Below are positions 1 to 14,400 of a DNA stretch of 23,615 bases, one piece after another. This DNA is from a virus, in IMG/VR virus record IMGVR_UViG_3300030117_000123, positions 1 through 23,615 of that record; one strand, given 5' to 3'. The position numbers were made by a program, and so were the translations under genes. The notes below the pieces were generated by a model, which worked only from the letters and a program-made list of their open reading frames with translations, was not told the DNA's origin and did not search any database. Positions within the stretch are counted from its first letter, which is position 1. Each line of letters opens with the position of its first letter.

Positions 1-542
1 CTAAAGTACGCACCCATAATAACGTACCGCTTCGTCTTGAACTTAGTGTCTATATCTAAAGCTCTACATTTGAGTAGATTGTTAAGTTGTCTATTAATCG
101 CTGTCGAATTAACGTCAGGATTATTAGCTCTAAGAAAAGCCAATAATGGCTTCTTCTTCAATGTGTTATCCTTTACGGTTTTAAGGATAATCTGTTGAAG
201 CTCTTTACGATTGTCACGCTTTGGTTGTTCCTTGTAGTCATACGGCAAGTCAGACAGCTTATACTTTTCGCATAATGCTTTCCACTTGTCGTCTTGTCTA
301 TACAAGAAAGCCATAACTCCGCTTTCCCAGTCAAGATAGCGTCTTCGTATCTCTCTAAACTTTTCAAAGTCAGACTTGCTGACACCTGCGGCGGTGTAAT
401 TACATTCGCCTAAGTGCCAGTGTCCGTCTAGCTTCTTTGATATAGTCTTATCAAAGTGTAGTTCAGAGTCAGATAAAAAACGCCGTCTAGTCGAAGGCTC
501 TTGCCAGAGTTGATAGCGTGTTTGGTGGTCGTTGCTACTCAT
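1..542 (-). CDS. Hypothetical early protein, C-terminus cut by window edge
   Basis: The reading frame opens with ATG at 542 and stays open to base 1, giving 180 codons with no stop, so the gene continues beyond the left edge. It begins MSSNDHQTRYQLWQEPS, is rich in Lys, Arg and Asp, and has no membrane segment. The C-terminal half visible here (about residues 110-180; KELQQIILKTV, then VNSTAINRQLNNLLK and KTKRYVIMGAYF) has the helix-helix-strand look of a winged-helix DNA-binding domain; this is inference from pattern only. Its ATG overlaps the stop of the 43-aa membrane peptide upstream (TAATG), so the two are probably translationally coupled, and both lie downstream of the phage promoter at 711-729. 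A 70-codon frame inside it (173-385) is a shadow. I do not recognise the family. Confidence 0.8.
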   Translation of the reverse strand, partial: MSSNDHQTRYQLWQEPSTRRRFLSDSELHFDKTISKKLDGHWHLGECNYTAAGVSKSDFEKFREIRRRYLDWESGVMAFLYRQDDKWKALCEKYKLSDLPYDYKEQPKRDNRKELQQIILKTVKDNTLKKKPLLAFLRANNPDVNSTAINRQLNNLLKCRALDIDTKFKTKRYVIMGAYF

Positions 543-673
543 TAAAGTTGACCTGTGTAGCTATACCAACATTGGTCAGACATTGCACAAGCTACCCAAA
601 TCATAGCCCAAAGGCTAAATAAGAAAACACCTGTGCCAATAACTGCTCCAATGAACTTTATTACATCTAACAT
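542..673 (-). CDS. 43-aa single-pass membrane peptide, early gene
   Basis: Short ORF beginning MLDVIKFIGAVIGTGVFLFS and ending YSYTGQL. A strong Shine-Dalgarno (AAGGAG) lies 8 bases before the ATG, and the stop overlaps the next ATG (TAATG). Residues 5-28 form one hydrophobic transmembrane segment, followed by a short Cys-containing tail (AMSDQCWYSY). The leader from the CAAACAAACAAGGAG block to the ATG is almost identical to the leader of the 86-aa gene at 1315, differing by one base. Small membrane peptides are common in phage early regions and often target host functions, but no specific function can be assigned. Confidence 0.75.
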   Translation of the reverse strand: MLDVIKFIGAVIGTGVFLFSLWAMIWVACAMSDQCWYSYTGQL

Positions 674-710: not shown

Positions 711-729
711 TCATTATAATGGGAACTTT
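711..729 (-). promoter_or_regulatory. Phage RNA polymerase promoter (P2), upstream of the 43-aa gene
   Basis: The minus strand reads AAAGTTCCCATTATAATGA. The first 15 bases are identical to the site at 1904-1922, and the pattern CCCATTATA resembles the T7 promoter core CTCACTATAG. Expected start of transcription is near 714, giving a leader of about 40 nt before the ATG at 673. It sits after ribozyme 1, so transcripts from it would lack both hammerheads. Confidence 0.65.
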
Positions 730-817: not shown

Positions 818-877
818 GAGCTCATCAGTCTAGGCATAACCTAGAGACAAGGCGGAACGCTCCGCCCTGTTTCGCTC
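818..877 (-). ncRNA. Type II hammerhead ribozyme (HHR-1)
   Basis: Read on the minus strand: stem II 5' strand GAGC (877-874); conserved GAAA (873-870); stem III of 10 pairs including the A15.1-U16.1 pair (A870 with U847), capped by GCGU; cleavage triplet GUC (848-846) with the cut between 846 and 845; stem I UCUAGG/CCUAGA (845-840 with 834-829) with loop UUAUG; conserved CUGAUGA (828-822); stem II 3' strand GCUC (821-818). Stems I and III are closed hairpins and stem II is open, which defines type II. All invariant core bases are present (C3 U4 G5 A6 G8 A9, G12 A13 A14, A15.1-U16.1, H17=C). It begins 5 bases after the stop codon of the 56-aa gene. Stem II is only 4 bp. Activity is inferred. 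Confidence 0.88.
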
Positions 878-881
878 TGTG

Positions 882-1052
882 TTAAATCCAAGCGTTTTTG
901 TGTGCTTCGTGTAGCATATCTAATTTTTTACGCTTGTCTTTTTCTTTTTTGTAAGCCTTGAAAAATTCTTTTTTGTCTTGTTCGTCTTGGAATTTCTCTC
1001 GGCTTTCTTGCTCTTGTAGTCGCTTAATTTTTGGGTGTATAAATCTAGCCAT
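882..1052 (-). CDS. 56-aa charged early protein
   Basis: ORF starting MARFIHPKIKRLQEQESREK and ending EAHKNAWI. It is dominated by Lys, Glu, Asp and Gln, predicted helical and possibly coiled-coil, with no membrane segment. The ATG at 1052 follows the stop of the 86-aa gene by two bases, and no clear Shine-Dalgarno is visible, so translation is probably coupled. The stop codon lies 5 bases before the type II hammerhead, so the ribozyme would define the 3' end of its mRNA. Function unknown. Confidence 0.75.
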   Translation of the reverse strand: MARFIHPKIKRLQEQESREKFQDEQDKKEFFKAYKKEKDKRKKLDMLHEAHKNAWI

Positions 1053-1054
1053 AA

Positions 1055-1315
1055 TTAAGCCGCCTCTGTTTCTTTAACGTGTGACATATCCAAAAAGCCC
1101 TGAGCCAATATAATAGACTCGCCGCCGCTTGAAGCGTGAGGCTCTCGAACAACTTTAAAAGCGTCTTTTTTCGCTTCTTCGTCATAATATAAAGTTGTTG
1201 AAATCTGACCGCTCCAACTTTGAGCGTTGACCTCAAGCCCTGTTGTCTTATGTGCTCTAGCTGTTGGAATAGTCTTCCTAGCTGAGTTGCTTATTACTCC
1301 ATAAAAGTGTGACAT
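1055..1315 (-). CDS. 86-aa conserved-looking early protein behind a hammerhead leader
   Basis: Starts MSHFYGVISNSARKTIPTAR and ends LDMSHVKETEAA. The composition is that of a small beta-rich soluble protein; the GVISNSARKT...HKTTGLEVNAQSW block resembles small conserved hypothetical proteins I associate with marine phages. The ATG at 1315 has a strong AAGGAG 9 bases upstream, and this Shine-Dalgarno is part of stem III of the type III hammerhead at 1328-1393. A 63-codon frame in the same stretch (1045-1236) is a shadow. Function unknown. Confidence 0.85.
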   Translation of the reverse strand: MSHFYGVISNSARKTIPTARAHKTTGLEVNAQSWSGQISTTLYYDEEAKKDAFKVVREPHASSGGESIILAQGFLDMSHVKETEAA

Positions 1316-1324
1316 AGTTATTTA

Positions 1325-1330
1325 CTCCTT
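1325..1330 (-). promoter_or_regulatory. Shine-Dalgarno partly sequestered in ribozyme stem III
   Basis: AAGGAG at 1330-1325 precedes the ATG at 1315. Bases 1330-1328 (AAG) pair with CUU at 1393-1391 in hammerhead stem III, and G1327 could form a further G-U pair with U1394. In the uncut RNA the site would be partly masked. After cleavage at 1381/1380 the masking strand is on a separate molecule. Confidence 0.55.
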
Positions 1331-1393
1331 GTTTGTTTGTTTCGCCGTTCTGCGGCTCGTCAGTCAGGGCGACACCCTGAGACAAACAACAAG
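1328..1393 (-). ncRNA. Type III hammerhead ribozyme (HHR-2) embracing a ribosome binding site
   Basis: Minus strand, 5' to 3': stem III 5' strand CUUGUUGUUUG (1393-1383); U16.1 and C17 (1382, 1381) with the cut between 1381 and 1380; stem I UCAGGG/CCCUGA (1380-1375 with 1369-1364), loop UGUCG; core CUGACGA (1363-1357, N7=C is permitted); stem II GCCG/CGGC (1356-1353 with 1347-1344), loop CAGAA; GAAA (1343-1340); stem III 3' strand CAAACAAACAAG (1339-1328), pairing with the 5' strand with one bulged A. Stems I and II are closed and stem III is open, hence type III. All invariant core bases are present. The last bases of stem III are the first bases of the AAGGAG of the 86-aa gene. Activity is inferred. 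Confidence 0.88.
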
Positions 1394-1494
1394 AGCCAGA
1401 CCTTCTTCACTTTCGTGACCGCCTTCTGGCTGAGTGGGCTTCCCTTCTGGTTCGAAACTATCTAGGCGGTTACTGGTATCTGCCGCAACCACTC
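1394..1494 (-). ncRNA. Structured 5' leader RNA upstream of the type III hammerhead
   Basis: Two stacked elements are visible on the minus strand. Nearest the ribozyme, AGCCAGA (1431-1425) pairs with UCUGGCU (1400-1394), enclosing a purine-rich internal loop and an inner stem UCAC/GUGA (1418-1415 with 1410-1407) capped by a GAAA tetraloop. Upstream, GAGUGG (1494-1489) pairs with CCACUC (1437-1432) and closes a domain containing GCGG/CCGC (1486-1483 with 1469-1466). I do not recognise a named RNA family. It directly abuts hammerhead stem III and may influence its folding. Confidence 0.5.
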
Positions 1495-1555
1495 TCCAGA
1501 GGCACTAAGTTTTTTTTATGTAGAATTAAAACTTGCAAACAATTAATATATATCC

Positions 1556-1828: not shown

Positions 1829-2131
1829 GTGTGTTGCTTCCTTCCTTTATTTAATAAGTTAGTGAGTAAGTCCCTTTTATATATAGCTAGAGTAATAGCC
1901 TTATCTCTATAATGGGAACTTTAACCAACAAAGACCAAGCCGAAAAAAATAGACCCTAGCACACAAACAAACAAAAAGAAAACGCCGCAACGTGTGCAAA
2001 GGATAGATTATCCGCTATATACCAAAAAAAACCGCAGAATATATAGTAAAAAAGCCTTGTTTTTATGGATTTTTGCGGCTGTCAATGGGGTAAATCCGTC
2101 TCGTCATGTACGATATACCCTCTCATATTTT
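1829..2131. other. Intergenic region, probable genome-end junction
   Basis: About 300 bases without a convincing gene separate the lysozyme stop from the first early gene. The region holds the phage promoter at 1904-1922, several T-runs on the minus strand (including T8 after TGCGG near 2032-2026, with a CCGCA match about 40 bases upstream, a poor terminator candidate), and a perfect TTGACA (2085-2080) without a good -10 at the usual distance. In T7-like genomes the end of the late operon and the start of the early region are the physical ends, so a direct terminal repeat may lie here. No repeat copy is visible, as expected if the assembly collapsed it. A 73-codon plus-strand frame (1994-2215) overlaps the lysozyme gene and looks spurious. 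Confidence 0.4.
1904..1922 (-). promoter_or_regulatory. Phage RNA polymerase promoter (P1), at the early/late junction
   Basis: Minus strand AAAGTTCCCATTATAGAGA. The block CCCATTATAG matches the T7 core CTCACTATAG in 8 of 10 positions, and the expected start is the G at 1907. It is the best member of the family also found at 711-729, 3130-3148 and 11427-11445. By position it corresponds to the T7 end promoters (phi-OL/phi-OR), which T7 uses for replication and end processing as well as transcription. Confidence 0.7.
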
Positions 2132-11445: not shown

Positions 11446-14400
11446 ATTTGTTGATGATAGTCTCTAATATACTATCATAAGAAGAAGCGTTGCCTACGGC
11501 GTCAAATTTCTCCTGTATAAATACTCCTCGCTCTTCTAAAGTTTCTGCTAATATAGGATATTTATTCCACATATCTGCATAAGCTCCTTTTTCTGCCGCA
11601 TGTATTATTCTTAAAATAAAAGACTGTTGGTAATCTTTACCTGCTACCACTCCGTCTGGCATACGATATAATTCACTGTTTTTATCAGCAATAAGAGCTT
11701 CTATATATTGCTGTAATTTATAAGTTTTACCTCTATGTGTGAAAGTTTGATGTTGTTTTCGTTCCAACATATAATCATACGCTGTTTGTCCTTTATCATC
11801 TTTTATTGTTCTTAAATCTAAAGCTGTTCGTCTATCTACTTTTGGTGGAGCTTTATATTCAAAATCTCTACCTTTAAAAAACTCCGCCGTTGCTGTATCT
11901 TTCCATTGTGTCATAGCAAATGGTGAAGACCATAAACCAGTTTTACCACCTAATCCAAACAACCAACCATTTTGTCTATCTATTTTTTGACCAAACATGT
12001 TACGTTTTGGCATAGTTCTATCTTTATCACTAAATGGATTTAGTTGTCTTAGTCTATCACTAAATGTAAATAATTGTCTTTGGTGGTCGTCAGAAATTCT
12101 ACTAGAATATCTTAATCCACCTGACAATGGAGTTACTTTGTAAATAGCTCTAGCTAATACTGAACTACCAATTCTATCAGGAGCTCTGCTTCTCATAAAG
12201 TCATCACTAAATAAAAAGTTTGCTGTTTCTAAAATATTTCTTGTATAGAATTTAGAAGTTAAATTTCTTGTCATACTAGCTACAACACCCATTGCTAATT
12301 CTGTATATTGGTTTTCTACTTCTGTTGGTAAATCTTCATTGTGTTTTAAGAAATCACCAATAGCGTCAACCATGTCAGCCGCTATCATAAATGGCATAAA
12401 GATAGGGTCTAATCTATTTAAAGATATATGTCTACCGTCGTCCATTTTTAATGAGTATTCTTGCCAACCAGTGTTTTTCTTTCGTTCTTCATTTTCTTTC
12501 CAGTCTCTTGAACCACCACCAGTAATTCTACCATTAATAGCCATAAGCATTGCCGCACTCCACAGTAACCAACCTGCTTGTATTCTAGCATTAGCTTCTG
12601 CCGCCGCTTCAGGATTTAGATATTTACCGTCTGCACCTTTAGCTAACATGTGTCTCATTTGAAATTGAAATCTACCTAAGAATGGTAAATGTTGAAAGTT
12701 CCAACGTAATAAGTTTGAAGGAGTATTAATAAAGTGCAATCCAAACACTCTTAACCATTTATGTCTATTAGTAAATGATAGAACTGCACCAGTTACTCCA
12801 CCTTCATAAGTCTTAGTTACAGGATTAAAAGAACGTGCTGATTGTGTGTACGAACCTTCTCTTGCGTATTGTAAAGGACTATTTAAAATATTTTCTATTT
12901 TATCACCAGAGTCTATTGCCGCACCTGTTTCACTAATATAATCTTTTTCTAACTCTCTAAATCTTTTTACATATTGTTGTCTATTACTAAACACACCAAT
13001 GTCAGGTGTTTCTTTATATATTCTTGAATTTATTTCTGCCGCCATTCTTCCTTTAAACATCATCTGTTTTAAGAACTCGTCACCTGCTGACAATACTCTT
13101 AATGGTGCTGTAGTAATTTGAGCTATTGGATTAATAATACCTCGCTGTATTCCAGTGCCAAATATACCTAACGGTTCAGTTAATATTTTACCTGTTTCAT
13201 TTATCCAACGCTGAAGTTGTCCTTGTCTTATATTATTATCATACTTTAAATTTGCACTATCAAGTAATGGTCTTCCCATATAAAAGGCTTTCATTGCTCT
13301 TCGCAGTGCATAACCAGTATAGACATATTGATAAATGTAAGTTTGGAACGCTTCTCTTGCTACAATTTTAGAACGCTGAAAATCTCTAAAAGACAGGTTT
13401 GCCGCTCTCAACAACATTACAAATGGTTTCCATTGTGTTTGTGTAAGACCTGATATAATGTTTAATATGTGTGTATCAGGGGAAGACAATAAGTTATTAT
13501 TAACATACTCTGCCGCTAAATCCCATTTGTTTACTTTTCTTACATTTTGTAATGCAAGAATAGCTTGATTAGGGTCATCTAATAACGCCACTGCTTTTAT
13601 GTAAGCGTCTATGTCTGTCTCCATGAGCTTTTTCATTTCAGGGTCTTCAGGCAACATTTTAAGTTCAGTTGCTCTTTCAGCGTCACCTTTGACTCTACCT
13701 GCTGTTGTAGCTCTTGCGTAGTTTTCTTGTAATTCTTTTTGTACTTTAATTAATTCTAAAGCAACTTGAGCTCTTTTTTTAAATTCTACTCTAATAGATT
13801 GTTTTTCTGCTTCAGTAATTCCTTCTCTAAAAAAGTCGTTAGCTAATTTCATTTGGTCATCACCTTGTTTTAATAACAAGTCTTTATGTGCTATCATTAA
13901 ACCAAATAACTCTTTATCTTCTTTTGCTTTTGATTTTGCTAACTTCATTAACTTCTTAGGGTCAGCACCAAATTTTTCTGCAATAACTTTCATTTCATCA
14001 AAAGTTATAGTTTCTGTTCCTATTTCTTTAGCGTTTTCTCTAGCAATAATTTGAATATATTTTACTGCACCAGTATTACCACGTTCATCTAATTTATCGT
14101 AATTTAATTTTTCTTTAGGTGGTCTGCCTCGTCCTGATACTCTAACTTCGTTTCTTAAATTTTGTATTTTTTCATCTAAATCTTTTCCTTTTAAAATAGA
14201 GTCTTGTTCTATTTTATCTATTTCTTCTTTTTTAAGATTTTTATAATAAAACTTTTTTTCTTTTTTATCTGCTAAATCTGTAAATAATCTTTTACCTGTA
14301 ATGTCATCTCTTCCATAATTATGTAAGTCTTCTAACTGTTTAACAGCTCTGTTTTTCATAGCTCTGTTAGTTAATTTAAAACCACCATAAGCAAATGAAC

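Follow-up and report, generated by a model that had tools for sequence, protein, structure and literature searches.

The analysed stretch of DNA, here called the window, is a viral record of 23,615 bases. Its TerL shares 90.7% identity with the TerL of Pelagibacter phage HTVC109P (Autographiviridae, Pelagivirus), the capsid, tail and terminase families are recognised, and the capsid, tail and lysis genes lie on the minus strand in T7-like order. The T7-type gene order and the terminase point to a Pelagivirus-like (Autographiviridae) phage of SAR11, the commonest bacteria in the ocean, as the source of the window. A type III hammerhead ribozyme site is located 3' of the lysis genes and ahead of the early ones (Table 1). 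The preliminary description had placed it in the early-gene leader of a T7-like phage, and this placement is supported, with the term 'early' resting on homology: the RNA polymerase gene is outside the window, and on the L104 contig, which carries a 100% identical 86-aa ORF (L012), the distance from the type III hammerhead to the downstream polymerase gene is 2.7 kb.

Table 1. Features of the early region of the window, in the order of the minus strand.
Feature	Position	Strand	Remarks
Phage-promoter-like motif AAAGTTCCCATTATA	1908..1922	-	~530 nt upstream of first cut; motif only
Conserved structured leader RNA	1390..1512	-	directly 5' of type III hammerhead
Type III hammerhead ribozyme	1333..1389	-	stems I 7 bp (one G-U), II 4 bp, III 8 bp
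Predicted cleavage site GUC^U	1380..1381	-	C17 = 1381; sequence and descriptor scan
Shine-Dalgarno AAGGAG	1325..1330	-	directly 3' of hammerhead stem III
86-aa early ORF	1055..1315	-	first gene after type III hammerhead; ATG at 1315
56-aa ORF	882..1052	-	second gene; stop codon 4 nt before type II hammerhead
Type II hammerhead	818..877	-	stems I 7 bp, II 4 bp, III 10 bp; descriptor scan
Promoter-like motif, second copy	715..729	-	downstream of type II hammerhead; motif only
43-aa ORF	542..673	-	after type II hammerhead
ORF of at least 180 aa	3..542	-	runs off the low end of the window

Read on the minus strand from 1389 to 1333, the type III element has the sequence ttgtttgUCucagggugucgcccugaCUGACGAgccgcagaacggcGAAAcaaacaa and the layout UUGUUUGUC^UCAGGGUGUCGCCCUGA-CUGACGA-GCCGCAGAACGGC-GAAA-CAAACAA. 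Its core is complete, with CUGACGA, GAAA and the A15.1-U16.1 pair, and is surrounded by three helices, of which stems I and II are loop-closed and stem III is open; the loops UGUCG and CAGAA are present. The NUH triplet is GUC (1383-1381). A covariance search with the Rfam type III model, as proposed in the preliminary description, gave a significant match to RF00008 (Hammerhead_3) at 1388-1334 (-) over the full model length, with 43.4 bits and an E value of 1.4e-6 for the whole 23.6 kb window and all 4227 families, although the score stays under the gathering score of 48.5. Against its own model R1 the element reaches 75.1 bits, the sequence itself being part of the R1 training set. The three-way junction is present in the minimum free energy (MFE) fold of 1310-1410, the energy of which is ordinary (z -1.39). 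The descriptor scan, which covers all three circular permutations and demands the core CUGANGA, GAAA and UH, three stems and a total score of at least 12, found zero hammerheads in 10 dinucleotide shuffles of the window. With its core, GUC triplet and three stems, the element at 1389-1333 is confirmed at the sequence level as a genuine type III hammerhead with predicted cleavage. The preliminary description had thus identified it rightly, gave a correct range (1328-1393) and predicted a cut at 1381/1380 that agrees with the placement of GUC^U.

It had overlooked a second hammerhead at 877-818 and, with it, an array of several ribozymes of mixed types. The second element is of type II, with the layout GAGC-GAAA-CAGGGCGGAGCGUUCCGCCUUGUC^UCUAGGUUAUGCCUAGA-CUGAUGA-GCUC and a predicted cut at 846^845. 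It scores 80.1 bits against its own model R2 (the sequence itself is in the R2 training set) and is not reported by Rfam at E values up to 1; shuffles searched with the strict descriptor gave no match. The two hammerheads of the window are on the same strand (-) and flank two ORFs. No database family explains the protein of the 86-aa ORF, and a link of the ribozyme to this ORF itself was ruled out, as its distant homologues (L013-L021) are without a hammerhead. Hence, the association is one of position and phage group, not of that gene. A candidate group I intron at 12306-12431 (+) was also rejected (E 0.76, 18.9 bits at a cut-off of 50).

A strict whole-genome scan found 20 hammerheads in eight cultured Pelagivirus genomes: four each in HTVC109P (one spanning the record junction) and HTVC031P, three each in HTVC168P and Eistla, two each in HTVC142P and HTVC019P, and one each in HTVC201P and HTVC022P. 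All 20 have the sense orientation and occupy the stretch that separates the lysis genes from the RNA polymerase gene. A relaxed scan yielded zero hammerheads in HTVC134P, HTVC119P, HTVC200P, HTVC025P and HTVC011P, in Roseobacter phage CRP-114, pelagiphage HTVC027P (first 50 kb) and cyanophage P-SSP7, and in the first 7 kb of T7; its one weak antisense match, in HTVC142P, looks like noise. To these we added 113 IMG/VR loci, which overlap in relatedness and were picked by their RNA polymerase gene, independently of any ribozyme. They contain 137 strict hammerheads, every one on the sense strand and upstream of the polymerase, with up to five per locus and types I, II and III mixed. In the same loci none was found antisense and none in the 862 kb from the polymerase start onward, and one shuffle of all 113 gave no strict hammerheads. 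Chance matching was rejected on these grounds, as shuffles give practically none and antisense or downstream hammerheads are lacking.

For a comparison of clades, only loci with at least 2.4 kb upstream were used, and polymerase identity was measured to HTVC168P. At an identity of at least 81%, all 20 loci have at least one hammerhead (mean 3.3, maximum 5), and at 60-76% identity 10 of 12 do. At 77-80% only five of nine loci carry one, and never more than one; the trait thus differs between clades. The non-redundant set, window and cultured phages included, comprises 58 type I, 23 type II and 27 type III sequences. Two degenerate ribozyme patterns run across all IMG/VR matched 50 and 41 stretches; 55 of the 57 newly fetched pattern-match loci encode Pelagivirus proteins, and the remaining two are at most 1.8 kb long. 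Bacterial genome contigs scanned with the HTVC022P polymerase gave no confirmed prophage. The closest relative has a tRNA gene (58.1 bits; L012 2438-2508 (+)) in its early region, placed between hammerheads.

A conserved core in related phages, on which the preliminary description had made the identification depend, was found: cultured pelagiphages and relatives have the same element ahead of their first early gene, and its stems covary. The core is invariant in the 27 distinct type III sequences, which were themselves selected by core. In the type III alignment 98.9% of the pair cells are standard pairs and 12 of 18 pairs are changed on both sides, with compensatory changes across relatives in all three helices; in the type II alignment the values are 100% and 13 of 18. 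Slid-alignment controls are 27-47% paired. As the aligned sequences were chosen by a pairing descriptor, the pair counts lean towards structure. A separate count of the bare core CUGANGA, with no stem requirement, gave per 10 kb a density of 7.0 on the sense strand of the early region, 0.22 on its antisense strand and 2.6 downstream. Among core/GAAA pairs, stem II reaches 4 bp or more in 77 of 117 early cases, compared with 8 of 103 downstream. The sense-strand bias, the invariant catalytic core and the compensatory changes in all stems argue for selection on RNA and against an action at the DNA level, as packaging or replication sites or as repeats, as well as against decayed, inactive ribozymes. 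That the first hammerhead lies near the ends of linear pelagiphage records, and that a few relatives hold decayed remnants, would fit such a reading; further copies 0.3-2.5 kb into the early region speak against it, and we consider this reading as a whole very improbable.

The predicted cuts fall between genes. In the eight cultured genomes, 17 of 19 lie outside annotated genes in a region that is 61% coding (P ~8e-6), the junction copy of HTVC109P being left out of the 19. The two exceptions are HTVC109P genes with annotated starts inside a hammerhead. In this genome (L022) the annotated starts of gp01 (at 1), gp03 (at 589) and gp05 (at 1121) are within hammerhead sequence, and all three are probably mis-called. 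An ORF start with a Shine-Dalgarno-like site follows within 160 nt of 117 of 119 distinct hammerheads, and the cut precedes the start by a median of 42 to 64.5 nt, depending on the type. At some type I hammerheads (L023 488-551, L024 663-726, L026 8787-8845 and 10041-10104) the first stem strand includes the stop codon (gTAAca) of the preceding gene, so that a terminating ribosome would overlap the ribozyme.

We consider it likely that the conserved array of one to five mixed-type hammerheads self-cleaves the early polycistronic RNA between genes, dividing it into mRNAs. Each hammerhead would fold during transcription and cut in the gap behind one gene's stop codon and ahead of the next ribosome-binding site, turning the early polycistronic RNA into mRNAs of one to a few genes. 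In the window, cutting at 1381^1380 and 846^845 would release a two-gene mRNA of ~535 nt, and the former cut would trim off a long structured leader, of ~530 nt if the promoter-like motif at 1922-1908, a motif match only, is the start. The pieces upstream of a cut would carry a terminal 2',3'-cyclic phosphate and, judging from the topology, for types I and II also end in the stem III hairpin, and the downstream pieces would start with a 5'-OH and, for types II and III, also with the stem I hairpin. Such RNA ends are expected to alter decay and translation, slowing decay. It is from the observed sequences, structure, covariation and exclusive position of the array that we infer self-cleavage, transcript processing and stabilisation.

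In T7, RNase III cuts the early mRNA between cistrons, at hairpins. The pelagiphage arrangement resembles this in the intercistronic cutting, here predicted to be by ribozymes, of an Autographiviridae early transcript, but the cutting is catalysed by a protein in T7 and by a predicted ribozyme, with no protein, in the pelagiphages. More tentatively, and with somewhat less than even confidence, we suggest that a row of RNA enzymes of mixed architecture replaced RNase III-type intercistronic cutting in an abundant group of marine T7-like phages, with the structured leader, hitherto undescribed, at the head of the row, where it may be released or control the first cut.

Directly 5' of the type III hammerhead, this leader RNA is about 110-150 nt long in relatives and recurs in HTVC168P (L023, 39590-39713), HTVC019P (L028, 828-971), Eistla (L026, 8036-8165) and HTVC022P (L029, 359-473). 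Its outer stem exchanges sequence among relatives (CCUUCGGC/GCCGAAGG, CCACACAC/GUGUGUGG, CCAUACAC/GUGUAUGG); 94% of 117 pair cells are paired, compared with 25-56% in slid alignments, and two of five shuffle measures were not exceeded. The leader has no Rfam match and no tRNA was found in it, and sigma-70 promoters are not in excess over shuffles. A covarying structured RNA of this kind, adjoining the hammerhead on its 5' side in diverse relatives and matching no Rfam family, could suggest that the main task of the type III hammerhead is to form the 3' end of a noncoding leader RNA, with 1512-1390 as the released product. The leader also persists where the first hammerhead is lost (Eistla, L124-L126, L143), which speaks for an RNA of its own and at the same time means that release is not obligatory. 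As leader release would, in addition, leave the type I and II hammerheads between downstream coding genes unexplained, we regard it as an unlikely main function. The leader is kept at L124 7218-7344, L125/L126 6700-6823 and L143 6731-6886, and in L124-L126 and Eistla (L026, 8161-8200) a stem III-like strand remains without the CUGANGA core; judged by sequence, the first hammerhead has apparently decayed in these relatives. Hence, no single hammerhead appears to be indispensable, a point against the processing reading.

A further possibility is a translation switch, in which the Shine-Dalgarno region would be held in an extended stem III until cleavage releases it. In the MFE fold of 1310-1410 stem III indeed extends into CAAGGAG, and for type III the mean predicted accessibility of the Shine-Dalgarno region rises from 0.48 uncut to 0.61 cut, with 8 of 28 cases up by more than 0.2 and one down. 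Yet the gain is absent in type II, inconsistent in type I and missing in many type III cases, and for the window itself it is small (0.52 to 0.61). A switch is therefore improbable, somewhat more so than leader release. Unmasking of the ribosome site was rejected as a general function, as the accessibility predictions are only partly consistent, and on these models release of the ribosome-binding site would at most be a partial extra for type III.

The array is of a known kind, namely the phage hammerhead clusters described in 2011. In prophages of Agrobacterium, Azorhizobium and Clostridium scindens, hammerheads of several types flank single genes or short blocks (PMC3088659). Perreault et al. 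(2011) proposed transcript processing for them and observed cleavage in vitro, with the Agrobacterium hammerheads also cutting in E. coli. Under their conditions 4 of 18 consensus hammerheads were inactive (PMC3088659), which is a caution for the cleavage predicted here. The window shares with these clusters at least two hammerheads of mixed type on one strand flanking genes. The Pelagivirus array differs from them in being conserved across a phage group, restricted to the T7-like early region, present in cultured isolates and made up of as many as five copies. The HF1/HF2 hammerhead (HHphage) is located 13 nt before an early helicase gene, and a mapped 5' end lies within 3 nt of its cut (PMC3088659). 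It is similar in that an early polycistronic transcript has the hammerhead close before its first ORF, but HHphage, from a high-salt archaeal virus, has a variant core and is the one copy described before that transcript, whereas the pelagiphages have standard cores and several ribozymes that would partition the region. The preliminary description knew of no copy fused to the ribosome-binding site of a T7-like early gene; for a hammerhead just before a phage early gene, HF1/HF2 are a precedent (PMC3088659). What is new is the conservation across a T7-like SAR11 phage group, the strict confinement to the early region and the copy number. A literature search, which covered few subscription papers and is weak evidence, found no paper joining hammerheads with pelagiphages or Autographiviridae.

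The pelagiphage elements have the same core and fold as RF00008 (Hammerhead_3) and RF02276 (Hammerhead_II) and align to them at full length. Rfam models independently match several copies (types II and III, together with RAGATH-1 and HH9, which are type-I-like), none of them reaching the cut-offs; RF00008 scores in relatives are 45.5 bits for L012 and 40.1 bits for HTVC168P, and no hammerhead match in the cultured and IMG/VR loci searched reached a curated cut-off. Standard annotation consequently misses these hammerheads, and many phage ribozymes stay hidden below the Rfam cut-offs. Most known phage hammerheads are scattered prophage copies, which is part of what makes it hard to say why phages carry them. 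Here, a conserved, multi-copy and position-restricted array is found in cultured SAR11 phages, and infection RNA-seq is public for HTVC022P (PRJNA1253180), which makes the transcript-processing hypothesis checkable at named nucleotides; the predicted cut in HTVC022P follows position 2353, and the predicted C17^1.1 sites in HTVC168P are 545, 1259 and 39724.

Two further repeated motifs occur in these genomes. The promoter-like motif is possibly, judging by its sequence, a promoter of the phage RNA polymerase; as TAAAGTTCCCATTATAGA it is repeated identically in HTVC109P (L022) at 40649 and 1199, and a variant, TAAAGTGCCCTTTTTAGA, precedes late genes in other isolates. The second motif, GACTAGACGGCG, is a sense-strand repeat of 12 nt, counted with up to one mismatch; it is absent from the control genomes tested and occurs in the early regions of L022, L023 and L026-L029 and in the window near 492 (-).
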